Positions 765-24,675 of a stretch of DNA of 24,675 nt are shown in pieces. The stretch comes from a virus. Below the pieces are notes generated by a model, which was not told the origin of the DNA, ran no database searches, and was given only the letters and a program-made list of their open reading frames with translations. The position numbers and the translations under genes were made by a program. The DNA lies in the IMG/VR virus record IMGVR_UViG_3300049810_001172, positions 1 through 24,675 of that record; one strand, given 5' to 3'. The number at the start of each line of letters is the position of its first letter. The first letter of the stretch is position 1.

Positions 765-2774
765 ATGGAAAAATTTACATTAACGGATACATTTATAAAT
801 AAATACAAAAGAAAAAAAGCTCCGTTTGGTTTTAATGGTTTGGGTGAATTGGTTTATATGAGAACCTACTCAAGAATCAAAGAAGATGGAAAAAATGAAA
901 GATGGTGGGAAACTGTAAGAAGAGTCGTAGAGGGAACATACTCTATGCAAAAAAATCACATTGATGGACATCAATTAGGGTGGAATCCGTGGCAAGCTCA
1001 AAAATCAGCACAAGAGATGTATGAGCGTATCTTCAATATGAAGTTCTTGCCACCTGGTCGTGGACTTTGGGCTATGGGAACAGCCATAACCGAAGAACGA
1101 GGCTTATACGCTGCCCTAAACAATTGTGCATTTGTATCAACTAAAACAATAAAAGAAGATTATGCTAAACCATTCTGTTTCCTTATGGATGCTAGTATGT
1201 TAGGTGTTGGCGTTGGGTTTGATACAAAAGGTGCTGGTGAGATAGTAGTTAAAGGTGTAAATAAAGATAGAGATATTACTATATTTGAAGTGCCTGATGA
1301 TAGAGAGGGTTGGGTTGAATCACTAAAGGTTCTGTTAGAAAGTTATTTTCACGGAACTGCTTCTGTAAAATTTGACTATAGTAAAGTCAGAAAGGCAGGA
1401 GAACCTATAACAGGTTTTGGTGGAGTCAGCAGTGGACACGAACCTCTTGCAGAAGTGCATGAGAGTATAAGAGAAGTATTAGAAAAGAATAGCGGAGAAC
1501 CAATTACAATCACAACAATCGTAGACATAATGAATCTAATTGGTAAGTGTGTTGTAGCTGGTAATGTTAGAAGAACAGCAGAAATCGTATTCGGTGATCC
1601 CCACTCAGAAGAGTATTTAGATTTAAAAAATTACAAAGTAAATCCACATAGAGAACAATATGGATGGACATCTAATAATAGTATATTCGCAGAATTGGGT
1701 ATGGATTATACTGCCGCTGCCGAACGAATTGGTGATAATGGCGAGCCTGGATTTGCATGGTTGGATAATATGAGACAATACTCTCGTATGAAAAATGGTG
1801 GGGATAACAAAGACCATAGAGTTATGGGTGGTAATCCTTGTTTAGAACAATCATTAGAATCATACGAACTATGTTGTTTAGTTGAAACATTTCCTGATAA
1901 TCACGATTCATTAGAAGATTATCAAAGAACGTTAAAATATGCTTATCTGTATGCTAAAACAGTAACATTAGGTAGAACTCATTGGAGTGATACCAATAGA
2001 GTTATGTTGAGAAACAGAAGAATAGGATGTTCAGTAAGTGGTGTTGCTCAGTTCATTACTAACAGAGGATTAGATGAATTAAAGACTTGGCTGAACAGTG
2101 GATATGATGTAATCCAACAATGGGATGATATGTATTCAGATTGGTTTGCTGTTCCTAACTCTATCAAAACTACTTCGGTTAAACCAAGTGGAACGGTATC
2201 ACTATTAGCTGGTGCTACTCCGGGTTTACATTATCCCGAAAGTAGATTTTATATAAGAAGAATGAGGTTATCAAAACATTCAGAATTATTAGAACCATTG
2301 AAGAAGGCTAATTATAAATTAGAACCAGCCTTTGGTTCAGAAGATACAACGATGGTTGTTGAGGTGCCGGTTGATGTTGGTGAGGGGATAAGAACAGCAG
2401 CTGAACTTTCGATTTGGGAACAATTCAGTTTAGCTGCTTTCTTACAAAGACATTGGGCTGATAACCAAGTCAGTTGCACAGTTACATTTGATCCTGAAAC
2501 AGAAAAGAGTCAAATTGCTCCTGCTCTAAACTACTATCAATATCATTTGAAAGGTATTAGTTTATTACCGAGGCATGACTATGGTGCTTATCAACAAATG
2601 CCATATGAAGCTATTGAAGAAGAAACTTACCATAAAGAAGTTAAGAAGTTAGGTAAGTTATCTTTTGGTGTAATCAAAAACGAAGAAGCAGAAGTAGATA
2701 AATTCTGTAACAATGATTCGTGTGAGATAATTCCTCAAACAGGCGACAATGATGACCAGGAATATGCAAATTAA
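765..2774 (+). CDS. nrdJ: Adenosylcobalamin-dependent ribonucleoside-triphosphate reductase (class II, monomeric RTPR)
   Basis: 669 residues, slightly shorter than the roughly 740 of the Lactobacillus leichmannii enzyme. It reduces ribonucleoside triphosphates to deoxy forms using coenzyme B12 as radical source, without oxygen or a separate radical subunit, and so supplies dNTPs for phage replication. Family landmarks: RTYSR and RWWETVRRVV (33-55); the reducing cysteine in NNCAFVST (C121); NPCLEQSLESYELCC with the thiyl-radical cysteine C359, E361 and second reducing cysteine C370 (spacing identical to C408/E410/C419 of the L. leichmannii enzyme); PSGTVSLLAGATPG; and the C-terminal shuttle pair C648-X4-C653. 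All redox residues are present, so the enzyme looks active. T4 itself uses a class I NrdAB enzyme; class II enzymes are common in marine phages. No terminator separates it from the receptor gene 78 bases downstream. Confidence 0.95.
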   Translation: MEKFTLTDTFINKYKRKKAPFGFNGLGELVYMRTYSRIKEDGKNERWWETVRRVVEGTYSMQKNHIDGHQLGWNPWQAQKSAQEMYERIFNMKFLPPGRGLWAMGTAITEERGLYAALNNCAFVSTKTIKEDYAKPFCFLMDASMLGVGVGFDTKGAGEIVVKGVNKDRDITIFEVPDDREGWVESLKVLLESYFHGTASVKFDYSKVRKAGEPITGFGGVSSGHEPLAEVHESIREVLEKNSGEPITITTIVDIMNLIGKCVVAGNVRRTAEIVFGDPHSEEYLDLKNYKVNPHREQYGWTSNNSIFAELGMDYTAAAERIGDNGEPGFAWLDNMRQYSRMKNGGDNKDHRVMGGNPCLEQSLESYELCCLVETFPDNHDSLEDYQRTLKYAYLYAKTVTLGRTHWSDTNRVMLRNRRIGCSVSGVAQFITNRGLDELKTWLNSGYDVIQQWDDMYSDWFAVPNSIKTTSVKPSGTVSLLAGATPGLHYPESRFYIRRMRLSKHSELLEPLKKANYKLEPAFGSEDTTMVVEVPVDVGEGIRTAAELSIWEQFSLAAFLQRHWADNQVSCTVTFDPETEKSQIAPALNYYQYHLKGISLLPRHDYGAYQQMPYEAIEEETYHKEVKKLGKLSFGVIKNEEAEVDKFCNNDSCEIIPQTGDNDDQEYAN

Positions 2775-2823: not shown

Positions 2824-2852
2824 TTAACAATAACAAACATGGAGATCGTTTT

Positions 2853-5582
2853 ATGAAAAACAAACGTAATCTAGTAACACTACTTATGATGATGACAGGA
2901 TTGTTTGCTCAATCTATTTCAGGAGTCGTAGGTGGTGAAAATCCACTTCAAGGAGCAAATGTCGTAGTAGTAGGAACAGAACTTGGTTCAGTTTCAAACG
3001 GCGAAGGTAGTTATCTTATCAAAGATGTACCTGCTGGAACATACGATATTACTGCTTCTTTTATTGGTTATTCTTCAAAGACTATAAGTGTAGTCGTTGG
3101 AGAAGATGATGCTGTTGTTGACTTTACACTTAAAGTTGATGCGGTATCAATGTCAGCATTAGAAGTTCTTGCTTCTAGGGCTGATGAAACTACACCTGTA
3201 GCTTACACTACGATAAATAAAGCTGAAATGGAAGTTCGTCTTGGTTCACAAGATATTCCAATGATTCTTAATACTACTCCTAGTGTATATGCAACTGGTC
3301 AAGGTGGTGGTGCGGGTGATGCTCGTATCAACGTAAGAGGTTTCAACCAAAGAAATGTGGCAGTTATGATAAACGGTGTTCCCCAAAACGATATGGAGAA
3401 TGGATGGGTTTATTGGTCTAATTGGGATGGGGTAGGTGATGCTACTTCTTCCATTCAGATGCAAAGAGGTCTATCAGCTGTAAATCTTGCTACACCATCT
3501 ATTGGTGGAACTATGAACATTATTACCGATCCTGCTGCTCAAGAGAAAGGTGGTAAGTTCAAACAAGAAGCTGGAGCTGGTGGTTTTCTAAAAACTACTT
3601 TAAACTATAATTCAGGTTTAATCGCTGACAAACTAGCACTTAGTGGAACGATAGTTCGTAAAACTGGTGAAGGTCTTATCGATGGAACTTGGACAGATGC
3701 TTGGGCTTACTATGCTGGTGCTAGTTACGCCATAAGTGACAAACAAAGAGTCGAACTATATGGTATCGGCGCTCCCCAAAGACACGGACAGAACTTATAC
3801 AAACAAAATATTGCTACCTACTCACAAGAGTTAGCTGGAAGTATTGACGGGTATAATGATTCTGCTTATGTAGCTGGTGAGAAGTTTGAAACTGAAGCTG
3901 GTAGGTTCTACAATCAGAATTGGGCTCCTGTTGATCCTTCTTATAAAGGTAAACAATACTTTTATATGTATGGTGATAAAACACAGGATAGACATAGTTC
4001 TGATTTCTTAAATGAAAGAGAGAACTTTTTTCACAAACCGTTAGTTAACTTAAATCATTTCTATGATGTAAATGACCAAGTTAGACTAAGTTCCGTTGCT
4101 TATTGGAGTGGTGGTTCAGGTGGTGGAACTGGAACTTATGGTAGTGTTTCAAGAGCTCCTGCTATTGAAGGAAACTCTTGGTATGCAAGTTCACCTTGGA
4201 TATGGGATTGGAATGCTGAGATTGCTCAAAACTCCGATAACATAGATGAAGAGTTTTCAGCTGATGAAAACCGTTCAACAGGTATTCTTCGTAACTCAAT
4301 CAATAGACAAAATACACTTGGTTTAATTTCTAAGTTAAACTATGAAGTTAGTGATGACTTAGAGGTTCAAGTTGGTATTGATTGGCGAAGCGCTGGAATA
4401 GAACATGCTAGAGAAGTTCGTGATTTACTTGGTGGAGACTACTATGTAGATTTTGCTGATGACAATGCTCCTGATGGTAAGAAAGTTGGGTTAGGTGATA
4501 TTATCGCTTACCACAACGAAACCACAGTTGATTGGTTCGGTGCTTTTCTACAAGGTAAGTATGACATCGCTAAGTTCAACTTATATGGTATGGGTGGAAT
4601 ATCTACTATTGGATATACTTACCAAGACCATTTCTCAGTTGATAAAGAAGTTGTTAAGGCTGATGCTATTACTACTTTCCAAGTGAAAGGTGGTGGTAGA
4701 TATAACCTTGATGATAGACTATCAGCATTTGCTAATATTGGGTATGTTGAGAAACCACCAATCTTAGACAATGTGATTGATAATGATGGTAATGTTTCAC
4801 AGAATCCAGATAACGAGAAATTTATTTCTAACGAAATAGGTGGAGAGTATAAAAGTGAGTTAGTTGCTATCAAAGGTAGTTACTACAACACTCAATGGAA
4901 AGATAGAAACCTTACTAAATCTGTTCAAACAGGTCAAGGTGACTCTGGCGACACAGACATCATTTATCTAACTGGTGTAAATCAAAGTCATAGTGGTTTT
5001 GAAATCGAAACTAAAGTTGCTCTTCACGAAATGGTATCATTAGATGTTGCTATTAGTGCTGGTAATTGGTATTTCGGTGGAGATGCTAATGGTGATTATA
5101 CAGAGTTAGAATATAATGATGATAATCAAGTCATTGGACAAACTTCTACAGAGTATGAATATGCTCTTAAAGACTTAAAAGTTGGTGATATGCCACAGAC
5201 AGCATATGTCGGTGGATTAACTATCAAACCAATCAAAGGTCTAAATGTCCAAGGTCTTTACAGATGGTATGACAATCACTATGCTGATTGGAGTCCTGAT
5301 TCTCGTGAGGTTAGTGGTGATGCTGACAGAGCTCAAGTATGGAAAACTCCATCCTACGGCAAGTTAGATTTCCATCTATCTTACAAACTACCAGAATTTG
5401 CTGGTTTAAACATGACAGTTAGTGGTCATGTATTTAACGCTCTTGATGAAGTATATGTTCAAGATGCGGTTGACAATAGTAAGTATAATGGGTATGGTGA
5501 CAAAGTTCACGCTTCTCATAATGCTGAAGTATTTCTTGGAACACCAAGAAACTTTAACTTAGGACTATCTGTCAATTTCTAA
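2853..5582 (+). CDS. TonB-dependent outer-membrane receptor with CarboxypepD-regulatory-like N-terminal domain
   Basis: 909 residues, apparently full length. Start ATG 2853 is chosen over the in-frame ATG at 2817 because GGAG (2841-2844) lies 8 bases upstream and translation then opens with a normal signal peptide (MKNKRNLVTLLMMMTGLFA, cleavage near residue 19). Order: regulatory-like beta-sandwich (about 21-95; GANVVVVGTELGSVSNGEGS, DVPAGTYDITASFIGY); TonB-box-like ALEVLASR (about 102-109); plug (about 113-235; DIPMILNTTPSVYATG, ARINVRGFNQRNVAVMINGV, MENGWVYWSNWDG, RGLSAVNLATPSIGGTMN); a 22-strand-type barrel; and a C-terminal LGLSVNF ending in Phe, the usual barrel-assembly signal. Such proteins import siderophores, cobalamin, glycans or peptides using host TonB-ExbBD. 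The type is typical of Bacteroidota/FCB bacteria and very unusual in a phage replication region. No SusD partner is present. Base composition resembles its neighbours by eye. The substrate cannot be read from sequence. Confidence 0.93.
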   Translation: MKNKRNLVTLLMMMTGLFAQSISGVVGGENPLQGANVVVVGTELGSVSNGEGSYLIKDVPAGTYDITASFIGYSSKTISVVVGEDDAVVDFTLKVDAVSMSALEVLASRADETTPVAYTTINKAEMEVRLGSQDIPMILNTTPSVYATGQGGGAGDARINVRGFNQRNVAVMINGVPQNDMENGWVYWSNWDGVGDATSSIQMQRGLSAVNLATPSIGGTMNIITDPAAQEKGGKFKQEAGAGGFLKTTLNYNSGLIADKLALSGTIVRKTGEGLIDGTWTDAWAYYAGASYAISDKQRVELYGIGAPQRHGQNLYKQNIATYSQELAGSIDGYNDSAYVAGEKFETEAGRFYNQNWAPVDPSYKGKQYFYMYGDKTQDRHSSDFLNERENFFHKPLVNLNHFYDVNDQVRLSSVAYWSGGSGGGTGTYGSVSRAPAIEGNSWYASSPWIWDWNAEIAQNSDNIDEEFSADENRSTGILRNSINRQNTLGLISKLNYEVSDDLEVQVGIDWRSAGIEHAREVRDLLGGDYYVDFADDNAPDGKKVGLGDIIAYHNETTVDWFGAFLQGKYDIAKFNLYGMGGISTIGYTYQDHFSVDKEVVKADAITTFQVKGGGRYNLDDRLSAFANIGYVEKPPILDNVIDNDGNVSQNPDNEKFISNEIGGEYKSELVAIKGSYYNTQWKDRNLTKSVQTGQGDSGDTDIIYLTGVNQSHSGFEIETKVALHEMVSLDVAISAGNWYFGGDANGDYTELEYNDDNQVIGQTSTEYEYALKDLKVGDMPQTAYVGGLTIKPIKGLNVQGLYRWYDNHYADWSPDSREVSGDADRAQVWKTPSYGKLDFHLSYKLPEFAGLNMTVSGHVFNALDEVYVQDAVDNSKYNGYGDKVHASHNAEVFLGTPRNFNLGLSVNF

Positions 5583-5593
5583 AATGGTGATTT

Positions 5594-5620
5594 GGGGGCT
5601 TGAAATATAGCCCCCTTTTA
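5594..5620 (+). terminator. Rho-independent terminator after the receptor gene
   Basis: GGGGGCT (5594-5600) pairs perfectly with AGCCCCC (5609-5615) across an 8-base loop and is followed at once by TTTTA. It starts 12 bases after the receptor stop codon. This is the clearest terminator in the window and closes the reductase-receptor unit. Confidence 0.88.
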
Positions 5621-5624
5621 TCAA

Positions 5625-5650
5625 AAAACCCTTGACTTGTATAGGGTTTT
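5625..5650. promoter_or_regulatory. 8-bp inverted repeat overlapping the polymerase promoter -35 box
   Basis: AAAACCCT (5625-5632) and AGGGTTTT (5643-5650) are perfectly complementary with a 10-base centre. The TTGACT box begins at the last base of the left arm and lies in the centre. It could be a second, weak or bidirectional terminator (A-tract before, T-tract after), or an operator occluding the promoter. The sequence alone does not decide. Confidence 0.45.
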
Positions 5651-5670
5651 AGTTGTATATTTAAACATAG
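5632..5670 (+). promoter_or_regulatory. Promoter for DNA polymerase gene
   Basis: TTGACT (5632-5637), an 18-base spacer and TATATT (5656-5661), followed by TAAACATAG. Read as a Bacteroidota-type promoter it is TTG, 21 bases, TATATTTA, which fits TTG-N19-21-TAnnTTTG except for the last base. Bases 5655-5682 match 12221-12248 upstream of the Nmad1 gene at 26 of 28 positions, the best evidence that this is a real conserved promoter/leader element. It sits directly downstream of a strong terminator. Confidence 0.65.
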
Positions 5671-5676
5671 AAAATG

Positions 5677-5704
5677 AGGATTTTATATCCTATAACAATC
5701 GGAG
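5677..5704 (+). promoter_or_regulatory. Polymerase mRNA leader: SD-sequestering hairpin and downstream ribosome-binding site
   Basis: AGGAT (5677-5681) and ATCCT (5687-5691) form a perfect 5-bp hairpin with loop TTTAT. In the near-identical leader of the Nmad1 gene the same GAGGA is the Shine-Dalgarno site just before the ATG; here it is base-paired and no start codon follows. A second site, GGAG (5701-5704), lies 6 bases before the ATA proposed as polymerase start. In T4, gp43 represses its own translation by binding a hairpin near its ribosome-binding site; this hairpin is a candidate functional analogue, though it does not share the T4 loop sequence by eye. Confidence 0.4.
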
Positions 5705-5710
5705 TTAGTT

Positions 5711-8206
5711 ATATACCAAAACATTTATTACGACAGAAAGAAAGCAAAGGTTCATATTTGGGATGATGAGCTTGGGTATTATACACTTCCTTATAAAAGA
5801 TATGCATATGTAAGAGATAGAGCTGGAACTCATATATCTTTATATGGAGACAAGTTAAGAAAAGTTTTTAAGTTTGATAATGAGACTCCGAATTTATTTG
5901 AATCAGACGTTCCGCCTGAAACGAGAGTTTTGGTTGACCAATATACAGAGTCGGAAGAACTATCAAAAAATCATCGTATTATGATGATTGATATTGAGGT
6001 TGAAGTTACAGAAGGATTTCCAGAACCATCGGAAGCTAAAAATAAAATTACATCTATAGCTATACATGATTCAAAGGATGACATATACTATGCTTTTGCT
6101 TTAGATGAAAAAAGCCGATTGACATTAGAATCAAAGGATAATATAGTTATAAAAAGGTTTGATGATGAATTCAGCTTACTTCAATCATTCTTCCAAACGT
6201 ATTTACAGATTAAACCAACTATATTAACCGGTTGGAATATGGATTCATTTGATATGCCTTACCTATATAATAGAGCTTGTAAAGTTGTTGGTAGTAATGT
6301 TGCTGATATGCTGTCTCCGATTCAAGAGGTTCATTGGAATAAACATAGAGGTAGATATCTATTCGCTGGTGTTAGTTGTTTAGATTACTTAGGTTTATAT
6401 AAGCTATTTACTTACACTCAGCTATCATCTTACAGATTAGATGCTGTTGCTGAATTTGAATTAGGTGAGAATAAGATAGAATATAGCGGAACATTGACAG
6501 ATTTATATGAAAATGATTTAAACAAATACATAGAATATAACATTCATGATGTCAGGTTGGTAAAGAGAATGCATGACAAATTAGACTTTATCGATATGGC
6601 TAGAGGTGTATGTCATGTAGGTCATGTTCCTTATGAGGATGTATTCTTTTCTTCTCGATACTTAGAAGGTGCTATTTTAGTTTATCTAAAAAACTTAGGT
6701 ATAGTTGCACCAAACAAACCAACAAGACCAAAAATGGATAGTGATGAAAAGTTTATTGGTGCTTATGTTCAGCCGCCACAAAGAGGAAAGCATGATTGGG
6801 TATTTGATTTAGATATTACATCTATGTATCCATCTGTTATTATGTCTTTAAATATATCACCTGAAACTAAGATGGGTAAGTTGAATGGATGGGATGCAGA
6901 AGAGTTTATGAGAGGAACGAAAAAAACCTACACTCTTATATCAGGCGAAAAAGAGATGGGTAAACTTACAGAAACAGAACTAAAAGATTTCTTTGAGAAT
7001 AACAAAGTTTCAGTATCTTCTAATGGTGTTCTATATCGTAGTGATAAGAAAGGATTGATTCCAGCCCTATTAGAAAAGTGGTTCGATACTCGTGTGGAGT
7101 ATAGAAAGTTGATGAAGAAGTTTGGTGATGCTGGTGATAATGAAAAATATACATATTTCAAAAGTCGCCAGTTGATTCAGAAGGTGGTGCTAAACTCTCT
7201 CTATGGTGTATTGGGTTTACCTGTATTTCGTTTCTATGACTTAGATAATGCTGAGGCTACAACACTTACAGGTCAAGAACTAATTAAATTTACCAAAAAG
7301 CTAGGTAATCATTTTTACAACAAAGAGCTTGGAGATGATAAGGACTATTGTATCTATATCGATACAGATTCAGTATTCTATTCAGCGCTTCCGTTAGTTA
7401 AGAAGAGATTTCCTACTATGGACTTCGATAGTGAGACTATGATGAGTAAGAGGATATTAGATGTTGCTGATGAAATGCAAGCATTTCTAAACAAATCATA
7501 CGATTACTTTGCTAAGAGATTTCTAAACTTAGACATTCACAGATTTGAAATAAAGCAGGAGTTGATAGCTAAATCAGGTTTGTTCATTGTGAAGAAAAGA
7601 TATGGTATGAAGATTATCAATGACAATGGAGTAAAGGTAAACAAACTGCATGTAAAAGGTTTGGACTTAGTTCGCAGTAACTTTCCAAAGGCTATGGGCG
7701 AGTTGTTGAAAAGTGTATTGGAAGATATTCTGGCTACTGTTCCAAAGGATAAGATAGATGAGAGGATTATAAACTTTAAAGAGTCTATGAAACTATTAAA
7801 CTTTGATAGGATAGCTATGCCGACAGGTGTAAAAAATCTAAAGAAGTATTCAGATGGTAAGAAGGGTAAGTTTACAAATTTTGCTAAGGGTTCGCCTGCG
7901 CACGTTAAAGCTGCTATAACCTATAATGATTTGATTAGTTATTTTGGATTGACTAAAAGGTATGAAAAGATAACTTCATCAGAAAAGATAAGATGGGTTT
8001 ATCTTAGACAAAATGAATTGGGATTGGATTCTTGTGGGTATAAAGGTTATGAAGATCCACCACAAATAATAGATTTTATTAAAAAGCATATTGATTATAA
8101 AAAGATGTATGCTCAGATGTTAGAGAAAAAAATTATGATGTTTTATGAAACTCTAAAATGGGATGAGCCGGTAAATAAAAAAACATCAATGGAAAGATTT
8201 TTTTGA
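5711..8206 (+). CDS. 43: Family-B replicative DNA polymerase (T4 gp43-like), apparent ATA start
   Basis: 831 residues if begun at ATA 5711. It copies phage DNA with 3'-5' proofreading, held by the clamp encoded next. Exonuclease motifs: DIE (D94, E96), GWNMDSFD (about N176-D181), YNIHD (about 276-280). Polymerase motifs: A, DITSMYPS (about 368-375); B, KVVLNSLYG (491-499); C, IDTDS with D551 and D553. NISPET also matches T4 gp43. Start: the first ATG/GTG/TTG-type codon in frame is TTG 5930, but the 73 codons before it read like a genuine N-terminus (YQNIYYDRKKAKVHIWDDE and onward to ETRVLV) and run straight into the exonuclease domain. The frame is open only from 5696 (stop TAA at 5693-5695) and contains no canonical start before 5930. 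GGAG at 5701-5704 is correctly spaced for ATA 5711. Product very sure, start uncertain. Confidence 0.93.
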   Translation: MYQNIYYDRKKAKVHIWDDELGYYTLPYKRYAYVRDRAGTHISLYGDKLRKVFKFDNETPNLFESDVPPETRVLVDQYTESEELSKNHRIMMIDIEVEVTEGFPEPSEAKNKITSIAIHDSKDDIYYAFALDEKSRLTLESKDNIVIKRFDDEFSLLQSFFQTYLQIKPTILTGWNMDSFDMPYLYNRACKVVGSNVADMLSPIQEVHWNKHRGRYLFAGVSCLDYLGLYKLFTYTQLSSYRLDAVAEFELGENKIEYSGTLTDLYENDLNKYIEYNIHDVRLVKRMHDKLDFIDMARGVCHVGHVPYEDVFFSSRYLEGAILVYLKNLGIVAPNKPTRPKMDSDEKFIGAYVQPPQRGKHDWVFDLDITSMYPSVIMSLNISPETKMGKLNGWDAEEFMRGTKKTYTLISGEKEMGKLTETELKDFFENNKVSVSSNGVLYRSDKKGLIPALLEKWFDTRVEYRKLMKKFGDAGDNEKYTYFKSRQLIQKVVLNSLYGVLGLPVFRFYDLDNAEATTLTGQELIKFTKKLGNHFYNKELGDDKDYCIYIDTDSVFYSALPLVKKRFPTMDFDSETMMSKRILDVADEMQAFLNKSYDYFAKRFLNLDIHRFEIKQELIAKSGLFIVKKRYGMKIINDNGVKVNKLHVKGLDLVRSNFPKAMGELLKSVLEDILATVPKDKIDERIINFKESMKLLNFDRIAMPTGVKNLKKYSDGKKGKFTNFAKGSPAHVKAAITYNDLISYFGLTKRYEKITSSEKIRWVYLRQNELGLDSCGYKGYEDPPQIIDFIKKHIDYKKMYAQMLEKKIMMFYETLKWDEPVNKKTSMERFF

Positions 8207-8265: not shown

Positions 8266-8982
8266 ATGAATAAACATTCATTAAATAGGTTTATTGACAA
8301 ATACTATTTAGGTGGGAACTGCTCGTCAGTTGTGCTTAAAAGTGATGGAGATAAATTAACTACACGTTTTATCACAGGCGATAAGAATTTGCTTGGTGAA
8401 CTAACAATGACAGATTGGAAATTTGACTCAGCTGAGTTAGGTGTTTACAATACAGAACAATTAGTAAAGCTACTTTCAGTTATGTCTGAAAATATCTCAA
8501 TGGACTTAACAAAGGCTGGAGATAAAGTTGTTTCTCTAAAGATATCAGATAGTGCATCAGATGTAAACTATATGCTTTCTGATTTATCAGTTATAAATAC
8601 TCCACCAAAACTAAAACAAATACCTGAATTTGAAGTAAAGATTAAGGTTGATAGATCTTTTATGTCAAAGTTTGTTGCCGGTAAAGGTGCTCTAGCTGAT
8701 ACTGATAATTTTACAGTATTAACTGATGATGATGGCGTTAAAGTTGTAATTGGTTATGCAGAAATTAATACCAATCGTGTTACACTTCCTGTAGAAACAG
8801 AATCTTATGATAAAATTGATTATGTTTCTTTCAATGCTAACCTATTCAGAGATGTTTTGGTTGCTAATAAAGAATGTGAAAGTGCAACATTAGAGGTTAG
8901 TTCTGGCGGATTGGCTCGTATCAATTTTAAGATTGATGAATACGATGCTACTTACTATTTGGTTGCTGAACAAGACGTATAA
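8266..8982 (+). CDS. 45: DNA polymerase sliding clamp (T4 gp45-like)
   Basis: 238 residues against 228 in T4 gp45. The protein forms a trimeric ring that tethers the polymerase to DNA; in T4 it also activates late transcription. It has the expected beta-rich, acidic two-domain layout, with an N-terminal segment containing ELTMTDWKFDSAELGVYNTEQLVKLLS cut by short strands and a central proline-rich linker (INTPPKLKQIPEF) before the second domain. Sequence identity to T4 gp45 is low, as is usual for distant members; position between polymerase and clamp-loader genes supports the call. ATG 8266 follows AAGGAG at 8251-8256. The stop overlaps the next start as TAATG, so the two are probably translationally coupled. 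Confidence 0.82.
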   Translation: MNKHSLNRFIDKYYLGGNCSSVVLKSDGDKLTTRFITGDKNLLGELTMTDWKFDSAELGVYNTEQLVKLLSVMSENISMDLTKAGDKVVSLKISDSASDVNYMLSDLSVINTPPKLKQIPEFEVKIKVDRSFMSKFVAGKGALADTDNFTVLTDDDGVKVVIGYAEINTNRVTLPVETESYDKIDYVSFNANLFRDVLVANKECESATLEVSSGGLARINFKIDEYDATYYLVAEQDV

Positions 8983-9746
8983 TGGAAGAGTATGTAGATA
9001 AGTCTAGAGTTTCTGTTCGTCCAATATATAAACCATTGGCTCGTGATATAATAGAGAAAAACCACTATAGTGGTAGGCTTTCTTCTTGTAGGTATCCGCT
9101 TGGAATTTTTTATCAAACCGATAATGAACATAAATTCTTTGCGGAACCTGAAGAGAAATTAATTGGAGTCGCTTGTTATGGGTTTCCTGTTGGTAGAAGA
9201 GTTTTAGGTTCTATCTTCTCAGAAGAAATCTTAGAGAATAGAAACATATTAGAACTTACGAGACTCTTTATATTTGATGGTTATGGTAAGAACATTGAGT
9301 CTTTGGCATTAGGTCTTACATTCAAATGGATGAAAGAGAATGCTAAAAGCATTAAGGTTCTGATATCATATGCTGATCCTGAACAATCACATGATGGTGC
9401 TATCTATCAAGCTACAAATTGGATATACCAAGGTTGTGGTGATTTTCAGCTAGCACCAACATACTCTCTCAGACTTACAGAAGATGGAGAGTGGATGCAT
9501 AGTCGTAGTGTGTATTCAAAGTTCGGTTCAGCTGCACCTGAAAAGATGAAGAAGGCTATAGGTCATACATTTTGGTTGAAGAAGGAAGCTAGCAAACATA
9601 GATACATATACTTCTTAGGTAACAAAAAAGAGAATAGGAAATTTCATAGCGTGATGAAACATCCACAAATGAAGTATCCTAAAAACTATAAACACGATAT
9701 TGAAATAAGAAAAGTAGAGGTTGAGGACGATAAATGGAAACAGTAA
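8982..9746 (+). CDS. Mom-like DNA-modification protein (GNAT-related), copy 1
   Basis: 254 residues. Resembles phage Mu Mom, which converts adenines in phage DNA to a methylcarbamoyl/acetamido form and blocks many restriction enzymes. Motifs shared with the second copy at 11586: EKNHYS (25-30), ELTRL (91-95), SYADPEQSHDGAIYQATN (129-146), MHSRS (172-176) and a closing RYIYFLGNK block. The helix between ELTRL and SYAD, carrying LALGLTFKWMKEN, fits the cofactor-binding part of a GNAT fold. The gene starts at the stop of the clamp gene (TAATG) and overlaps the clamp-loader ATPase gene by 13 bases, so it is embedded in the replisome operon. The C-terminus from about 205 is basic and may contact DNA. 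The family call rests on remembered motif patterns; the exact chemistry is unknown. Confidence 0.72.
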   Translation: MEEYVDKSRVSVRPIYKPLARDIIEKNHYSGRLSSCRYPLGIFYQTDNEHKFFAEPEEKLIGVACYGFPVGRRVLGSIFSEEILENRNILELTRLFIFDGYGKNIESLALGLTFKWMKENAKSIKVLISYADPEQSHDGAIYQATNWIYQGCGDFQLAPTYSLRLTEDGEWMHSRSVYSKFGSAAPEKMKKAIGHTFWLKKEASKHRYIYFLGNKKENRKFHSVMKHPQMKYPKNYKHDIEIRKVEVEDDKWKQ

Positions 9747-11129: not shown

Positions 11130-11586
11130 ACCTAAAGGAATAAAAAAGAAAAGTTTATTTGACCATATTCAAGCAGTAACATCTCAACAAAGTCCTAATT
11201 ATTGGGAAGAGATATCTGATGATGATAAAAAGTCGTGGTCAAATTTTATGGTTAATAGGTTTCTTTCAATGAAGCCTGAATGGATAGATCTTGTAAATGA
11301 GGTTCAAAAATATCCATTGAAACCAAAAGAGTTATACAAAGTATACGCAGATATTTTACCAAAGAAAAAACAATGGTTAAAATATATAAAAGGAGATAAA
11401 CAAATGAAACATCCAAAATGGTTATATGAAATTGTAGCTAAACATTTACAATGTAGTATAAGAGAGGCTAGTGATGCCGTAGAGATGTATGAAATATCAG
11501 CCGGTGGACAAGCAGAGTTAGCTGATATATTAGGAAAGTATGGAGTTGAACAGAAAGAAATCCGGAAGCTCGGTCTTATTAGTTAA
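11122..11586 (+). CDS. 62: Clamp loader small subunit (T4 gp62-like)
   Basis: 154 residues, slightly shorter than T4 gp62 (187). It is the non-ATPase partner that completes the clamp-loader pentamer with four gp44 subunits. SLFDHIQAVTSQQSPNYWEE, KKSWSNFMVNRFLSM, LVNEVQKYPL and LPKKKQWLKYIKG match the marine T4-like gp62 pattern, and SNFMVNRFLSM corresponds to the SKFMVENALS region of T4. The C-terminal half is helical (IVAKHLQCSIREASDAVEMY) and ends in EIRKLGL. Position downstream of gp44 supports the assignment. Unlike in T4, two small genes separate 44 and 62. The stop overlaps the second Mom-like gene as TAATG. Confidence 0.8.
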   Translation: MAKPKGIKKKSLFDHIQAVTSQQSPNYWEEISDDDKKSWSNFMVNRFLSMKPEWIDLVNEVQKYPLKPKELYKVYADILPKKKQWLKYIKGDKQMKHPKWLYEIVAKHLQCSIREASDAVEMYEISAGGQAELADILGKYGVEQKEIRKLGLIS

Positions 11587-12224
11587 TGTCAATAAACTTT
11601 ACAATAGAAGAAATTCCTCGTAAAGCAGTTAAAAGTTTCATAGAAAAACATCACTACTCAAAAAGCGTAAATGGTATCCAAAGTTATTACCACTTCGGTT
11701 TATATACCGAAGGTAACTTTGGGTTACCTAAAATGATAGGTGCTATGTTATATGGAATACCATCTATGCCAGACACAGCGGCTAAATACAATCCTATAAA
11801 TCCTAAGAGGTGTATGGAGTTAAGAAGGTTATGCTGTATCGATGATACACCTAAGAATACAGAAAGTTACTTTATTGCACAGACTCTTAAATGGTTAAAA
11901 CAAAATACAGATATAGAGGTAGTTCTTTCTTTTGCTGACCAACATTATAATCATGCGGGCACTATCTATAAGGCTAGTAACTTTCATTATTTAGGAGAAA
12001 CTGCAAAGAGTAGGATATTAATGGTAGATGGAAAAGAAGTGCATAGTAGGTCTTTAAATCAAACTCAACGACCATATGGTAGAGAGTTGAAAAAAAGATA
12101 TGATGCAGGAGATGAAAATATATTTTTTGTTGCTAGAAAACCAAAGCATATTTATACATACTATTTGAATAAAAGAATTAAAAGACAAATAAAAAAGCTT
12201 GACTTATACAATAAAAATGTGTAA
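11586..12224 (+). CDS. Mom-like DNA-modification protein (GNAT-related), copy 2
   Basis: 212 residues, a diverged paralogue of the protein at 8982. The same motifs occur in the same order and spacing: EKHHYS (20-25), ELRRL (78-82), SFADQHYNHAGTIYKASN (115-132), VHSRS (152-156) and a terminal TYYLNK. It lacks the roughly 40-residue C-terminal extension of copy 1 and has a different loop after the first strand (NGIQSYYHFGLYTEGN). Two copies could recognise different sites or make different modifications, or one could regulate the other. The gene starts at the stop of gp62 (TAATG) and its end contains the promoter of the next gene. Catalysis is inferred from the family only. Confidence 0.7.
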   Translation: MSINFTIEEIPRKAVKSFIEKHHYSKSVNGIQSYYHFGLYTEGNFGLPKMIGAMLYGIPSMPDTAAKYNPINPKRCMELRRLCCIDDTPKNTESYFIAQTLKWLKQNTDIEVVLSFADQHYNHAGTIYKASNFHYLGETAKSRILMVDGKEVHSRSLNQTQRPYGRELKKRYDAGDENIFFVARKPKHIYTYYLNKRIKRQIKKLDLYNKNV

Positions 12225-14683: not shown

Positions 14684-14913
14684 GAAAAGATATTTTAAAT
14701 GCGAGTAAACTTCATTTTGAAGCTCATATCGAAAAGCATAAAGTGAACGTAAACAACTTACTGAGAAATACTGTCGGTGTCGCTGAGCATTCTGATATTA
14801 TGGATACGATAGAAAAAGAGCTGGCAATTATAGCTGAATATGATGATAAGCTAAATGTATTAGAAAAATATTTTATGAAAGGTGAAAATAAAAAAGAGGT
14901 TATAAATGGTTAA
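14680..14913 (+). CDS. Small helical protein of unknown function
   Basis: 77 residues, starting with GTG 14680 in a GTGA overlap with the previous stop. The sequence is predicted all-helical and charged, with ASKLHFEAHIEKHKVNVNNL, then RNTVGVAEHSDIMDTIEKEL and a final YDDKLNVLEKYF coiled-coil-like segment. It resembles short conserved proteins of marine T4-like phages that I cannot assign a function. It overlaps the first glycosyltransferase gene by 8 bases and so is co-expressed with the glycan operon. Confidence 0.65.
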   Translation: MRKDILNASKLHFEAHIEKHKVNVNNLLRNTVGVAEHSDIMDTIEKELAIIAEYDDKLNVLEKYFMKGENKKEVING

Positions 14914-16309
14914 GAAAAAGATTTTACTATTATCAGATGATCTAAGAATGTCATCTGGTGTGGGAACAATGTCTCGTGAATTTGTTATGGGGACATTAAA
15001 AGATTTTGATTGGGTTCAAGTTGCTGGTGCTATTAAACATCCTGAAGCTGGTAAATTTATAGATATGAATGATGCTGTTCGTCAAGAAACTGGTATAAAA
15101 GATGCTTGTCTAAAAATAATTCCTACTGATGGTTATGGTAATCCTGGCTTAATAAGGCACGTAATTGCTACAGAAAAGCCAGATGCTATATTACATTATA
15201 CAGACCCTAGATTTTGGGAATGGTTGTATCAGATGGAGCACGAGATAAGAATGCAAATTCCAATTTTTTACTATAATATATGGGATGATTTACCTTATCC
15301 AATGTGGAACGAACCATTTTATGAGAGTTGTGATTTGATTATGAATATATCGAAACAAACTCATAATATCGTTACGAATGTTCGCAAGAATGTTCCTACA
15401 AATGATTGGAATAATACTTATGTGCCGCATGGTATAAATGAAAATAGCTATTATCCTATTAGATGGGATCATAAAGAGTATAAAGAAATGCTAGAGTTCA
15501 GAAAAGGCATGTTAGATAATGCTGATAAGGATTTTGTTGTATTTTGGAATAACAGAAACATCAGAAGAAAGTTACCCGGTGATGTAATACTGGCTTATAA
15601 ACTTTTTTGTGATATGTTGCCAAAAGAAAAGGCTGATAAATGTGTTTTAATAATGCATACTCAACCAATAGATCCGAATGGAACTGATTTACCAAAAGTT
15701 GTAGAGGCTGTATGTCCTGAGTATGATGTTGTATTTTCAACAGTAAAGTTAGACGATAAGAAACTTAACTTTTTATATAATATAGGAGATGTTCAACTTA
15801 ATATGGCTTCTAATGAAGGATTTGGTTTAACAACTTGTGAAGCTTTAATGGCTGGAACGCCGGTATCAGTTAATGTTACAGGTGGGTTACAGGATCAATG
15901 TGGCTTCAAATACAAAGGAGAGTTTTTAACATATAAAGATTATAGTTGGGTTCATTCACTACACGATGATAAAAAGTGGAAGGATAACGAAGATTTGACT
16001 TGGGGTGATTGGGTTAAGCCCGTCTGGCCATCTAATAGAAGTTTGCAAGGTTCTGTTCCTACACCATATATTTTTGATGACAGGCCTCGTGCTGAAGATT
16101 TTGCTGATGCTTTGAAAGAGTGGTATGATATTGGTGATGATAAGAGAAAAGAATGTGGCGACTTAGGTCATGAGTTTGTAATGAGCGATGATGCTATGAT
16201 GAGTGCTAAAGCTATGAGTAAAAACTTCACAGATCATATGACTACAGCATTAGAAAAATGGACAAAAAGAAAACGATTTACAATTTTTAATACTTCGGAG
16301 GCAATATGA
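14906..16309 (+). CDS. Glycosyltransferase, GT-B fold, GT4-like (1)
   Basis: 467 residues. The N-terminal Rossmann domain opens with KKILLLSDDLRMSSGVGTMS (glycine loop for the acceptor side). The C-terminal nucleotide-sugar domain carries NEGFGLTTCEALMAGTPV (303-320), the EX7E motif of GT4 with E304 and E312 in the expected places. The insert HYTDPRFWEWLYQMEHEIRM and VPHGINEN fit marine T4-phage glycosyltransferases. It transfers a sugar from an activated donor; donor and acceptor are unknown. The product should be cytoplasmic (no signal or membrane segment). Overlaps 8 bases with the gene before and 4 with the gene after. Confidence 0.87.
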   Translation: MVKKKILLLSDDLRMSSGVGTMSREFVMGTLKDFDWVQVAGAIKHPEAGKFIDMNDAVRQETGIKDACLKIIPTDGYGNPGLIRHVIATEKPDAILHYTDPRFWEWLYQMEHEIRMQIPIFYYNIWDDLPYPMWNEPFYESCDLIMNISKQTHNIVTNVRKNVPTNDWNNTYVPHGINENSYYPIRWDHKEYKEMLEFRKGMLDNADKDFVVFWNNRNIRRKLPGDVILAYKLFCDMLPKEKADKCVLIMHTQPIDPNGTDLPKVVEAVCPEYDVVFSTVKLDDKKLNFLYNIGDVQLNMASNEGFGLTTCEALMAGTPVSVNVTGGLQDQCGFKYKGEFLTYKDYSWVHSLHDDKKWKDNEDLTWGDWVKPVWPSNRSLQGSVPTPYIFDDRPRAEDFADALKEWYDIGDDKRKECGDLGHEFVMSDDAMMSAKAMSKNFTDHMTTALEKWTKRKRFTIFNTSEAI

Positions 16310-17643
16310 AGCCGTTATTGTTAGTTACAGGACCACCAGCAACCAGAAGTGGTTATGGTGCACATACAAGAGATTTAATTCATTCTTTACTTGATATGAA
16401 TAAATTTGATATTAAAATAAATTCATTGCCGTGGGGTAATTGTCCAATGAATGCTTTAAATGAACAGAATCCTAAAGATAAGCTAATAATCGACAGATTT
16501 GTGATTGATGGTAGAATAGAAAGGCAGCCTGAAATACACATTCAAGTTAGTGTTCCAAATGAATTCAATCCAATAGGAAAATACAATATTGGTATTACTG
16601 CTGGTATGGAAAGCACAGTGCCAGTTGCTTCGTGGATAGATGGTTTAAATAGAATGAACCTAAATATAGTTCCATCTAACTTCGTAAAACAAACATTTAA
16701 AAACGTATCATATGATAAGATAAATGAAATTACGAAAGAGCCTGTAGGTCAATTAAGAGTAGAAAGGCCTATGGAAGTTTTATTTGAAGGCGCTGATTTA
16801 AATATATATAAAAAAACCAAAGAGTTTTCTAAGGAATTGGTAAATGAAATCGATAAGATTTCTGAAAAGTTCGCATTTCTTTATACTGGTCATTGGTTGC
16901 AAGGAAAATTAGGTCATGACAGGAAAGATACAGGTATGTTAGTCAAGACTTTTTTAGAAACATTTAAGAATAAAAAGAATCCACCAGCATTACTTATGAA
17001 AACAAGCGGTGCCACATTTTCTGTAATAGATAGAAATGAAATACTGAGTAAGATTGAAAGTATTAAGGAAACTGTTTCTTATAAAACCTTACCTAATATT
17101 TATGTATTGCATGGTGACTTAGAGGACGATGAGATGAATGAATTGTATAATCATCCAAAAGTAAAAGCACATGTTACGTTTACGCATGGAGAAGGTTTTG
17201 GTCGTCCTTTATTAGAAGCTACTTTATCTGAAAAGCCAATTATTGCTCCTAATTGGAGTGGTCATATAGACTTTCTCAGTAAAGGTAATTCTGTATTATT
17301 ACCAGGAACATTGATTGATGTAGACAAATCTTCTATACCAAAGGATATGTTACAAGAGGGTGCTAAATGGTTTGGTGTAAACTATCAATATGCTGGTCAG
17401 ATGTTAATGAAGGTGTTAAAAGAAAATAAAAAGTATACTTTAAATGCTAAAAAAATGGCTATGTTTAATAGATCTAAATTTTCATTAGATAGTATGACTA
17501 AAGAATTTGAAAATATCTTAGACAAACATCTACCAAATTTTGAAGAACAGCCTCAAGCAGTTAATTTAAAGTTGCCTAAACTAAAAAAAGTTGGACAAAC
17601 TGCTCCATCTAAAATTAAATTACCTAAACTAAAGAAGGTGTAA
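16306..17643 (+). CDS. Glycosyltransferase, GT-B fold, GT4-like (2), with duplicated basic C-terminal motif
   Basis: 445 residues. The opening LLLVTGPPATRSGYGAHTRD is the acceptor-domain glycine loop. HGEGFGRPLLEATLSEKPI (294-312) is the EX7E donor motif (E296, E304), followed by WSGHIDFL. FLYTGHWLQGK at 191-201 begins the second Rossmann domain. The last 25 residues form a basic tail carrying KLPKLKKV twice (422-429 and 438-445). The two copies differ at five synonymous third bases and at no amino acid. Start ATG 16306 has GGAGG upstream (16297-16301) and overlaps the previous stop. It probably acts in the same pathway as its neighbour; the tail may be a docking or membrane-surface motif. 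Confidence 0.87.
   Translation: MKPLLLVTGPPATRSGYGAHTRDLIHSLLDMNKFDIKINSLPWGNCPMNALNEQNPKDKLIIDRFVIDGRIERQPEIHIQVSVPNEFNPIGKYNIGITAGMESTVPVASWIDGLNRMNLNIVPSNFVKQTFKNVSYDKINEITKEPVGQLRVERPMEVLFEGADLNIYKKTKEFSKELVNEIDKISEKFAFLYTGHWLQGKLGHDRKDTGMLVKTFLETFKNKKNPPALLMKTSGATFSVIDRNEILSKIESIKETVSYKTLPNIYVLHGDLEDDEMNELYNHPKVKAHVTFTHGEGFGRPLLEATLSEKPIIAPNWSGHIDFLSKGNSVLLPGTLIDVDKSSIPKDMLQEGAKWFGVNYQYAGQMLMKVLKENKKYTLNAKKMAMFNRSKFSLDSMTKEFENILDKHLPNFEEQPQAVNLKLPKLKKVGQTAPSKIKLPKLKKV
17569..17640 (+). repeat. Duplicated KLPKLKKV coding repeat
   Basis: Two 24-base units (17569-17592 and 17617-17640) encode the same octapeptide at the end of the second glycosyltransferase. Five of eight codons differ, all silently, so the peptide rather than the DNA seems to be conserved. 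Confidence 0.75.
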
Positions 17644-17644
17644 T

Positions 17645-18106
17645 ATGGCTGAAAAGAAAACAGATTGTCCTTTATGTAAGGATTTACATAATAATTGTTT
17701 TGTAGAAACTACAGAAGTTGAAGGTTTACCATTTGAATCCTATATGTGCTTCGGATGTGGTATGACTACAAACTCTTATTTCGCTGTGGATAGTGAAAAG
17801 TTAGAAGAGATGACTAAGAATAATTCTCAGCTAATGAATGATTTAAAAATAATTGATGACGAGAGAGGTTTAGTGTGGTATCCATCTGTGGTTAATATGG
17901 GAGAGAAAGGTATAATATTTCCTGATGGTTTGATTAATGACTGGCACTGGAATTATGCTAAGGTAATTGATGTTCCTGAAGATCAAAGAGAACATTTTGA
18001 TGGTCATGATAAAAGATTAGATATAGAAGGAGCTGAGAAGTTCGGTCAGTTTGAATTTATGGATGCCTGTAAGTCTATGGGAATAATACTAGACGCAGAT
18101 GCCTAA
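17645..18106 (+). CDS. Zinc-knuckle protein of unknown function
   Basis: 153 residues. The N-terminus has C8-X2-C11 (DCPLCKD) and a second CFGCG pair (C35, C38) about 24 residues on: a small zinc ribbon. The remainder is acidic, with WYPSVVNMGEKGIIFPDG and WHWNYAKVIDVPEDQREHFDG. Proteins of this make-up occur beside glycosyltransferases in marine T4-like phages as conserved hypotheticals; I know of no tested function. It follows the glycosyltransferase stop by one base and overlaps the next gene by 8 bases. Confidence 0.65.
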   Translation: MAEKKTDCPLCKDLHNNCFVETTEVEGLPFESYMCFGCGMTTNSYFAVDSEKLEEMTKNNSQLMNDLKIIDDERGLVWYPSVVNMGEKGIIFPDGLINDWHWNYAKVIDVPEDQREHFDGHDKRLDIEGAEKFGQFEFMDACKSMGIILDADA

Positions 18107-18512
18107 GATAAATTATAATTGGTCTAAAGTTGTAGCGGGTGATATAATTTCATTCGTATATAAAAATAAAAAAGGTAGTAGACTCCGTAGAACTATACTT
18201 GTATTAGATCCAAAAAGAGATAATTTATTGCACGGAATACAATTAGAAGTGTCTAATATTCCAACCAATCCAGAGATAAAAAAGATATTGAAAACCGCTG
18301 GTGATACTAAGATAGTAGATGAAAATAAGAAGGTGTATAGAGTGGCTTTAGATGGAAGTGCAAAAGATACTTACAAAAAGTTAAAGTCTTTGATAAAAAG
18401 ACACGGAATTTACAGAACTTATAAATACGATGTAGCTAGAAAGAGTCAAGTATCTTTAGAAGATTTAAAATTACCAATAGGTTTTATAAAAGAGATAAAA
18501 AATGAAAATTAG
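18099..18512 (+). CDS. Protein of unknown function, possible SH3-like barrel
   Basis: 137 residues. VVAGDIISFVYKNKKGSRLR, RTILVLDPKRDNLLHGIQLE and a basic helical part (DTYKKLKSLIKRHGIYRTYK) suggest a small beta barrel of the SH3/PemK-MazF shape followed by helices; this is a resemblance only. Strongly basic, so nucleic acid binding is possible. It lies between a zinc-ribbon gene and a GT2 gene with overlaps on both sides (8 and 11 bases), which argues that it is a real, co-translated gene. Confidence 0.6.
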   Translation: MPKINYNWSKVVAGDIISFVYKNKKGSRLRRTILVLDPKRDNLLHGIQLEVSNIPTNPEIKKILKTAGDTKIVDENKKVYRVALDGSAKDTYKKLKSLIKRHGIYRTYKYDVARKSQVSLEDLKLPIGFIKEIKNEN

Positions 18513-19155
18513 TTATGGTATTACAGTCCACAACGAAGCAGAAGAACTACAAAAGTTATTAGAAGTATTGAATAAGAATATAGATAAAGAAGATGAGATA
18601 GTAGTTTGTGTAGATGGAGATGACGAAAAAGTAGAAGCTGTTTTGGGTGAATCGTTGGATAGTCGGCATACCGATATTGTTTACAAAAGAAAGTTAGAAG
18701 GTGACTTTTCAGCTCAAAAAAATTCAGTTATAGAAAAGGCGAGCGGTGATTATATCTTTCATATTGATGCTGATGAATATCCACATAGACTATTATTACT
18801 ACAGATTAAAAGAATAATAGAAATGAATGATAATGTTGATTTAATTTGGATACCACGAGTTAATACAATTGATGGTATGGAACAAAAACACATTCAAAAA
18901 TGGGGCTGGAAAGTTTCAGATAAAGATTGGGTAAACTATCCTGATTATCAAGCTCGTGTATTTCGTAATCATAAAGATATAAGATGGACTAGACCATTAC
19001 ACGAATATATAAGCGGATGCAAAACTTATGCTCATTTGCCACCACAAGAAGAGCTAAGTTTATATCATCCAAAAACAATAGAAAAGCAAGAAAAACAAAA
19101 TATGTTTTACAATCAAAACTTTAGTAGAGAAATGAATAGTCGGAGTAGCTTGTGA
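18502..19155 (+). CDS. Glycosyltransferase family 2-like (GT-A fold)
   Basis: 217 residues, short for the family, so essentially the catalytic domain. KISYGITVHNEAEELQKLL is the donor-binding first strand; VVCVDGDDE (34-42) and FHIDADEYP (86-94) supply the DXD-type metal site at D89-A90-D91. LHEYI and the YQARVFRN segment match GT2 proteins that act on glycan chains. It is cytoplasmic. It overlaps its neighbours by 11 and 4 bases. The C-terminus ends abruptly after the acceptor helix, as in other phage GT2 proteins. Confidence 0.85.
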   Translation: MKISYGITVHNEAEELQKLLEVLNKNIDKEDEIVVCVDGDDEKVEAVLGESLDSRHTDIVYKRKLEGDFSAQKNSVIEKASGDYIFHIDADEYPHRLLLLQIKRIIEMNDNVDLIWIPRVNTIDGMEQKHIQKWGWKVSDKDWVNYPDYQARVFRNHKDIRWTRPLHEYISGCKTYAHLPPQEELSLYHPKTIEKQEKQNMFYNQNFSREMNSRSSL

Positions 19156-20078
19156 TATTTTGGAGAGTATTGGATAATAAGTTATATACAGTTGGTGAAG
19201 TTGACAGGTTAGGATTTGAAGATTCAGAAGGGCTGCGGGTGTCTGATGATTACATAGCTCAGAGAGAGTTTACAATTATGAGAACTGCTCATGGTGTGGG
19301 TGATTGGGGAATAATATCTGCTATGCCAAAACTGATTAAGAAAAAATACCCAAACAGCAAAGTTTACATTCCCTCTCCGAAGTTTCTTGAAAAATTATTT
19401 GGTGATATGAAATCAAATTGGGGTAATTGGAATAATCCCTTTGAAAATGTTAAGTATATCTTTGATAATAATCCATATGTAGATGGATATAAAGATTATA
19501 TTTTAGGAGAAATATATCACGATCATTATAGGATATATGATAAAGGTAATAAGGCAATACCATTAACTAAACAGATGTTAAAATTTTGGCAATTCAATGA
19601 AAGCGAATATGATGATTGTTCTCCTGAGTTATACTTTTCAGACGAAGAGAAATCTATTGGCGATGATATAATAAAAAGATTTGCTGGCGATACTGAATTT
19701 GGTGGTTTGCTTATAACCAACAGATTTGAAAGTAGTGGTGGTAGGTATGATGAAGAAAGTAATAAAATGTTGATTAACGCTCTCTTAGAAAAATGCGGAG
19801 ACTTGCCATTCTTTTACTGGACATATAAAAAGCCCGATGAACTACCCATAATTTTCAACAAATGTTTTGATATGAGAAATGTTCCTACTAGAATACAGCT
19901 ATATATAAGAACAAAAGCTAAGTTAAATATTGGCACTCATTGTGGATTTTTAGATTGTGTCGCAAGATACTCAAAAGTTTTTCAGATACAACGAGTATTC
20001 CCGCTAAATCAGAATATCGTAGAGGATGAATATTATATTAATAAGGATAACTATAAGGAAAAATTAGAATATGTTTAA
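19152..20078 (+). CDS. GT9/heptosyltransferase-like protein
   Basis: 308 residues from GTG 19152, in a GTGA overlap with the previous stop and with CGGAG six bases upstream. RTAHGVGDWGIISAMPKLIK followed by KKYPNSKVYIPSP resembles the first strand, glycine loop and helix of ADP-heptose/GT9 transferases (GDxxxxxPxLxxLKxxxP). GTHCGFLDCVARYSK near the C-terminus resembles the GT9 donor loop (GxHSGxxHxA). The middle (residues about 110-200) is unlike bacterial heptosyltransferases. It probably transfers a sugar in the same pathway. The assignment is moderate: the two signature regions fit but are diverged. Confidence 0.55.
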   Translation: MIFWRVLDNKLYTVGEVDRLGFEDSEGLRVSDDYIAQREFTIMRTAHGVGDWGIISAMPKLIKKKYPNSKVYIPSPKFLEKLFGDMKSNWGNWNNPFENVKYIFDNNPYVDGYKDYILGEIYHDHYRIYDKGNKAIPLTKQMLKFWQFNESEYDDCSPELYFSDEEKSIGDDIIKRFAGDTEFGGLLITNRFESSGGRYDEESNKMLINALLEKCGDLPFFYWTYKKPDELPIIFNKCFDMRNVPTRIQLYIRTKAKLNIGTHCGFLDCVARYSKVFQIQRVFPLNQNIVEDEYYINKDNYKEKLEYV

Positions 20079-24392: not shown

Positions 24393-24675
24393 TATATTAT
24401 GTAGTAATAAAGATATAAAAGATCATGATGATGCTAATTACTATTTACAGTTTAGAGGACCAGATGGAACTTCTATAGTAAAGGATGAAGTTAATAACTT
24501 TACATTCTTACATAACTTACTAAGTATGACCGGAGAAATCACCCAACAGCCATTTCAGGATGATGGTATTATTTGTTTATATAATGGTGAAATTTACAAC
24601 TATAAAGATTTCGGTGATTATAAAAGTGATGGTTATTGTATTACAGACTTATATAAAAAGTATGGTGTTGATTTT
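24385..24675 (+). CDS. asnB: Asparagine synthetase-like glutamine amidotransferase, N-terminal part, cut by window end
   Basis: 97 residues visible, frame open to the window end. The nucleophile cysteine follows the initiator Met (MCSIL). FRGPDG (23-28), FLHNLLSMTGE, TQQPF, and LYNGEIYNYKDF and SDGYCITDLYKKYG match the class II glutamine amidotransferase domain of AsnB. The first loop is short compared with bacterial AsnB, as in other phage versions. The synthetase domain would lie beyond the window. With sugar-modifying genes upstream it may amidate a sugar acid or amino sugar (as WbpS/AsnB-like enzymes do for O-antigens) rather than make asparagine. AAGGA at 24372-24376 precedes ATG 24385, which lies inside the previous gene's end. 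Confidence 0.85.
   Translation, partial: MCSILCSNKDIKDHDDANYYLQFRGPDGTSIVKDEVNNFTFLHNLLSMTGEITQQPFQDDGIICLYNGEIYNYKDFGDYKSDGYCITDLYKKYGVDF

Follow-up and report, generated by a model that had tools for sequence, protein, structure and literature searches.

Why would a phage keep the gene for a complete outer-membrane receptor among the genes that replicate its DNA? The question is raised by an IMG/VR virus record of 24,675 bases, analyzed here over its whole length (the window), whose T4-like replication module lies on the + strand. The genes run in the order DnaB helicase end, class II ribonucleotide reductase (RNR), TonB-dependent receptor (TBDR), family-B DNA polymerase (polB), sliding clamp, Mom-like protein, and clamp loader, followed by glycosyltransferases and others. 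A preliminary description of the sequence had called the TBDR full-length, from signal peptide and regulatory-like domain through plug and barrel to a terminal Phe, and had placed it between a phage RNR and DNA polymerase. Both statements are borne out by the gene calls, by the matches to PF13715 and PF07715, and by the fold of the barrel (Table 1).

Table 1. Positions of the TBDR gene, its parts, and the flanking elements in the window.
Feature	Position	Strand	Basis or remark
Class II (adenosylcobalamin-dependent) RNR, RTPR type; conserved upstream neighbor	765..2774	+	TIGR02505, PDB 1l1l, cysteine motifs
Shine-Dalgarno-like GGAG	2841..2844	+	Sequence; 8 nt before ATG 2853
TBDR gene	2853..5582	+	909 aa, intact ORF, stop 5580-5582
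Signal peptide MKNKRNLVTLLMMMTGLFAQ	2853..2912	+	From the sequence; helix predicted at aa 2-13
N-terminal carboxypeptidase-regulatory-like domain	2919..3158	+	Pfam PF13715 (CarbopepD_reg_2), aa 23-102, 2e-16
TonB-box-like segment VLASRADETTPVAYT, before plug	3165..3206	+	aa 105-118; assigned by position
Plug domain	3186..3512	+	aa 112-220; Pfam PF07715, E 6.6e-13, 49.5 bits against a cut-off of 23.9
Aromatic plug motif W-V-Y-W-S-N-W	3405..3425	+	aa 185-191; invariant in all 50 aligned phage and cellular sequences
Beta-barrel, ending in Phe	3543..5579	+	aa 231-909; predicted strands and fold matches
Intrinsic terminator GGGGGCTTGAAATATAGCCCCC-TTTT, ends TBDR unit	5594..5625	+	Hairpin in the corresponding position in 12/12 relatives shown
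Sigma70-like promoter, TTGACT-18-TATATT, upstream of polB	5632..5661	+	Such matches no commoner than in shuffles
Family-B DNA polymerase; conserved downstream neighbor	5711..8206	+	phrog_262, E 9e-188; start-codon comparison

The TBDR protein and its neighbors

The preferred start of the TBDR is the ATG at 2853, with a further in-frame ATG upstream at 2817, and the same signal-peptide pattern is seen in 16 phage homologues. Over aa 105-118, the consensus share is 0.95 in phages, 0.88 in Fidelibacterota, and 0.77 in other FCB bacteria. The phage and Fidelibacterota consensus sequences agree at 86% of positions in this TonB-box region and at 94% of aa 112-230 in the plug. The likeness of the plug to FCB-group bacteria, remarked upon earlier, can be narrowed by sequence comparison and trees, which make it specifically Fidelibacterota-like. 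Within the plug, the aromatic motif is a candidate ligand-facing loop and may take part in ligand contact. Beyond aa 230, 24 strands of at least six residues are predicted, an uncertain count to be set beside the 22 expected of a TBDR, and the protein ends in ...GLSVNF, its terminal aromatic residue being kept in the family.

AlphaFold modeling, which the preliminary description had proposed, gave a barrel from a 50-sequence alignment (mean pLDDT 75, pTM 0.74), with parts of the plug at low confidence. The best PDB fold matches of the model are all TBDRs, including Fiu, PqqU, FhuA, FecA, and BtuB (E 1e-34 to 1e-29), and the search points to no single substrate. By sequence, the PDB gave matches in the plug and N-terminal domains only. 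Membership in the SusC/RagA subfamily was rejected, with no SusC/RagA match in NCBIfam and no SusD partner in the gene list of the window. A PHROG of unknown function, phrog_5687, aligns with aa 132-909 of the TBDR and probably represents a family of TBDRs.

The upstream RNR scores 350.7 bits against the TIGR02505 equivalog (cut-off 340.05), which assigns it to RTPR class II. Its best PDB match is 1l1l (E 4e-96), and the cysteine motifs NNC 119, NPCLE 357, LCC 370, and CNNDSC 648 are present; the class I small subunit, nrdB, was found in none of 15 long relative records. Downstream, sequence similar to the promoter in front of polB occupies the same place in most TBDR-bearing relatives and in TBDR-less ones. 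The polymerase probably starts at AUA (5711-5713), with GGAG at 5701-5704, and its first start of the ATG/GTG/TTG type is TTG 5930. Relatives have ATG (25), TTG (5), ATA (5), or ATT (3) in the corresponding place, an uncommon range for start codons. Farther along the window, two Mom-like DNA-modification genes (8982-9746 and 11586-12224) lie within one replication module. A long run of glycosyltransferases, with methyltransferase-like and epimerase-like genes and an asparagine-synthase-like start (14906-24675), may serve DNA or surface-sugar modification.

Occurrence in viruses, exchange, and ancestry

A receptor gene in such a place could be the product of an assembly chimera or of stray host DNA, but nothing in favor of either was found. 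A scan of IMG/VR found at least 323 viral stretches that encode relatives of the TBDR, and the best 80 of these 323 were retained for analysis. RNR lies upstream in 119 of the 119 TBDR loci with more than 1.8 kb of upstream sequence, some of these loci coming from the same contig. A separate IMG/VR record (L002) repeats the order dnaB-RNR-TBDR-polB-clamp with 100% identity at both junctions, and each of two others (L001 and L162) shares one of the junctions. Every retrieved copy has an intact ORF, one of them running off its contig, and all copies with the 3' end present finish in ...VNF, VSF, VTF, or VYF. At 0.22, the GC3 of the TBDR is like that of the neighboring phage genes, and the viral clade has a support of 100. 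Because the junctions are replicated across independent contigs and the gene order is conserved, an assembly chimera is rejected, and a chimeric or stray origin retains next to no probability. The earlier judgment that an assembly error was unlikely thus stands. The preliminary description would also have been contradicted by a tree in which no other viral contig had a relative in this position; in fact, many contigs carry a TBDR in the RNR-polB interval. These phages are a widespread T4-like group from environmental metagenomes. Two human-gut records named 'Bacteriophage sp.' (MT837399 and MT837128) also hold a full-length TBDR, 30% identical, and may be bacterial fragments.

Among distinct RNR-polB intervals, 65 contain the TBDR, 13 are short and empty, and 4 hold other cargo only. 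In TBDR-less phages, RNR is followed by polB within about 80 bases and the hairpin terminator is absent. The exception is one contig (L220/L276) in which only the last TBDR codons and the terminator are left after the RNR stop; this looks like a natural deletion scar, and could also be an assembly join. No TBDR was found elsewhere in the longer TBDR-less records, which are incomplete. Across 45 phages, TBDR identity and polB identity are nearly uncorrelated (Spearman rho 0.19): the window and L064 share 94% in the polymerase and 78% in the TBDR, whereas the window and L003 share 56% and 94%, respectively. Since TBDR identity hardly tracks that of the polymerase, alleles have been swapped among phages, and leader, TBDR, and terminator make up an exchangeable cassette.

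The interval is also an insertion hotspot. Its cargo in relatives includes glutamine synthetase, frequent at 12 copies, along with dUTPase, thymidylate synthase, a peroxiredoxin-like protein, a polynucleotide-kinase-type phosphatase, and a small lipoprotein. Examples are L057:12820-13842, L014:12839-13357, L018:1494-2066, and L078:12893-13765 (glutamine synthetase, dUTPase, peroxiredoxin-like, and thymidylate synthase genes). The small lipoprotein, which has a lipobox, is encoded shortly downstream of the TBDR in some of the phages (L022:12792-13295, L030:10657-11157, L017:3196-3735, and L039:10025-10525); it has no Pfam or PHROG match and is a possible partner of the receptor.

The closest cellular sequences belong to Neomarinimicrobiota (now Fidelibacterota; Marinimicrobia/SAR406), at 58-67% identity, followed by other FCB phyla at 45-52%. 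In a tree of 151 rows, a clade with a support of 100, nested within Fidelibacterota, unites 65 viral rows with a single row from that phylum (L082). A 65-row IQ-TREE agrees, with an SH-aLRT of 100, Fidelibacterota as the sister group, and L082 inside the viral clade. By these trees, the donor of the phage TBDR is a Fidelibacterota bacterium. The single bacterial member of the viral clade, a TBDR from a Fidelibacterota MAG (L082:986-3736, 67%), may reflect transfer from virus to host, which is put as a possibility because it sits on a long branch. Fidelibacterota are also the probable hosts, as judged from gene ancestry. The polymerase of the phage group was found in none of 120 Fidelibacterota genomes, and an RNR search over 245 host genomes gave remote or fragmentary matches only (best 48%). 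The median dN/dS of the TBDR is 0.136 over 17 pairs (RNR and polymerase, 0.077 each), with no excess of replacements, and a value of about 0.14 indicates purifying selection. By computation, then, the gene has the marks of an auxiliary metabolic gene, namely an origin in the host lineage, a viral clade, and purifying selection.

Proposed transport and candidate substrates

The preliminary description had offered three functions for the receptor without choosing among them; of these, import is now favored, and masking or exclusion less so. In superinfection exclusion or receptor replacement, an altered receptor copy would mask, dilute, or swap the receptor by which rival phages enter. TBDRs are common phage receptors, and allele swapping, together with the small lipoprotein after the TBDR in some phages, recalls receptor blocking of the T5 Llp-FhuA kind. 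However, a decoy would need no TonB box, yet this region is conserved, as is the plug. The extracellular loops, as delimited from predicted strands, are more conserved in phages than in Fidelibacterota at equal plug conservation (0.84 versus 0.53 for loop 431-476), the opposite of what receptor escape would produce. An additional functional receptor would tend to open more routes of entry, and the dN/dS noted above speaks against exclusion as well. The conserved TonB-box region, plug, and loops therefore favor a functional transporter whose ligand has not changed, rather than a decoy, and exclusion appears quite unlikely.

Computation thus supports an intact protein, the donor phylum, the behavior of a cassette, purifying selection, and conserved transport parts. 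From these, an ancestral phage would have taken the TBDR gene from a Fidelibacterota bacterium, and the cassette would then have moved between phages in the RNR-polB interval. During infection, after export and insertion into the outer membrane, the TBDR would draw its power from the TonB-ExbBD of the host, a system that known TBDRs require. With it, the infected cell would take up more of some scarce nutrient, the likeliest substrate being a nucleotide-like or other phosphoester compound that would feed nucleotide and dNTP synthesis by the phage.

The suggestion of such a substrate comes from the cellular orthologs. A type I phosphodiesterase/nucleotide pyrophosphatase (PF01663, E 3e-95) is encoded one or two genes after the ortholog in 17 cellular loci from several FCB phyla. 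In a control of 61 genomes sampled around Gracilimonas, PF01663 follows 3/3 new orthologs (43-47% identity) and 0/37 other TBDRs, a result that, with so few orthologs, is supportive rather than conclusive. Within Fidelibacterota, a PF01663 gene adjoins the ortholog by coordinates in three genomes (G118, G068, and G076), and ortholog and phosphodiesterase co-occur (41/58 versus 23/62 genomes; Fisher p 0.0003 without phylogenetic correction). A few orthologs have a deoxynucleoside kinase nearby, and the dUTPase, thymidylate synthase, and glutamine synthetase of the phage interval were also counted for this reading. The phosphodiesterase beside the cellular orthologs suggests a nucleotide-like or phosphoester substrate, PF01663 itself spanning several phosphoesterase activities. 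The main weakness of this suggestion is that the closest orthologs (60-67%) are mostly without an adjacent phosphodiesterase, those behind it being only about 41-57% identical to the phage TBDR. Among 23 phage records, none was found to contain a PF01663 gene.

Two other kinds of substrate have to be weighed against phosphoesters. Cobalamin, which would supply B12 to the adjoining adenosylcobalamin-dependent enzyme, was first favored because the RNR is of class II, and no class I small subunit accompanies it in the relatives searched. RNR stands directly upstream in all 119 testable loci, and the barrel matches BtuB too. Cobalamin import was then lowered because the riboswitch and neighbor tests came out against it. 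Cobalamin riboswitches occur in 91/120 Fidelibacterota genomes, and in the genomes compared they lie on contigs other than that of the ortholog; several precede other carboxypeptidase-like-domain proteins that, from their sequence starts only, resemble TBDRs. None was found at 7 cellular ortholog loci or in the window, and an Rfam search of the window gave no match. Membership in BtuB was accordingly rejected, neither riboswitch control nor a B12 neighborhood being found at the 7 host orthologs or in the window. TBDR-less phages retain the same class II RNR, and the link seen at the cellular orthologs is with a phosphodiesterase, so that cobalamin now has poor odds. The import of a different nutrient, such as an iron complex, an oligopeptide, a carbohydrate, or an amino-nitrogen source, would fit the great variety of TBDR substrates and the 12 copies of glutamine synthetase in the same interval, and the TBDR of a marine megaphage has been read as serving SusC-type carbohydrate uptake (PMC9723777). 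Against it, the protein has no SusC/RagA match, the surroundings of the orthologs showed no genes for siderophore or peptide uptake, and their conserved partner is the phosphodiesterase; this reading is rather unlikely.

We therefore prefer to see the TBDR as a host-derived auxiliary metabolic gene that would actively import a nutrient, most likely a nucleotide-like or phosphoester compound, into the infected cell, and we put the probability of this reading at roughly one half. A fuller picture can be drawn only tentatively: T4-like phages of Fidelibacterota might build, from a gene next to their RNR, an energized importer in the outer membrane that takes up nucleotides or phosphoesters from outside the cell, with infected cells obtaining DNA building material in this way, while alleles circulate among phages and may pass back to the host.

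Relation to known systems and implications

A TBDR is likewise found in the megaphage Mar_Mega_1 (and LR745206), where it was proposed to aid the acquisition of nutrients and was given a SusC-type carbohydrate reading (PMC9723777). That megaphage exceeds 650 kb and such cases are single reports, whereas the TBDR described here belongs to a cassette conserved between RNR and polB in hundreds of T4-like contigs. Viral structure predictions contain one other full-length TBDR only, the SusC-type A0A8D9FQQ5 from an uncultured marine phage, which is about 12% identical to the present protein over the structural alignment. In the searchable papers, a scope outside which subscription literature and preprints fall, no description of a conserved phage TBDR family was found, Mar_Mega_1 being the sole precedent, and TonB is absent from the main text of a global ocean catalogue of auxiliary metabolic genes.

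A cellular parallel is provided by the PusC/PUS loci of Flavobacterium, where TBDRs with phosphodiesterases serve organic-P uptake; as with the cellular orthologs described here, an FCB TBDR is paired with a phosphodiesterase (PMC8115612). PusC differs in being partnered by the lipoprotein PusD and regulated by phosphate (PMC8115612), and the likeness drawn here is one of gene pairing. The chromosomal orthologs of Fidelibacterota resemble the phage TBDR in full-length identity (58-67%), domains, and a near-identical plug. They differ from it in usually being single chromosomal genes with house-keeping surroundings, in lacking the phage terminator cassette, and in having more variable loops. 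Among phage genes, cyanophage PstS is a host-derived transport gene that is kept by phages and presumably supports DNA synthesis. PstS is a periplasmic binding protein, whereas the phage TBDR is predicted to be an energized outer-membrane transporter. The TBDR would thus be a host-derived phage metabolic gene in the form of an energized outer-membrane importer, with a presumed benefit from the substrate that it would carry.

To our knowledge, the nutrient-uptake genes of phages have so far been mainly those of the periplasm or cytoplasm. Fidelibacterota (SAR406) are for the most part uncultured, and the family described here gives a concrete, testable handle on their phages, besides a likely label for phrog_5687. 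Close phage relatives that differ in having or lacking the TBDR gene offer a natural comparison. Ultimately, that a phage lineage repeatedly keeps a full outer-membrane importer implies that the infected cell would alter its uptake from the surroundings.
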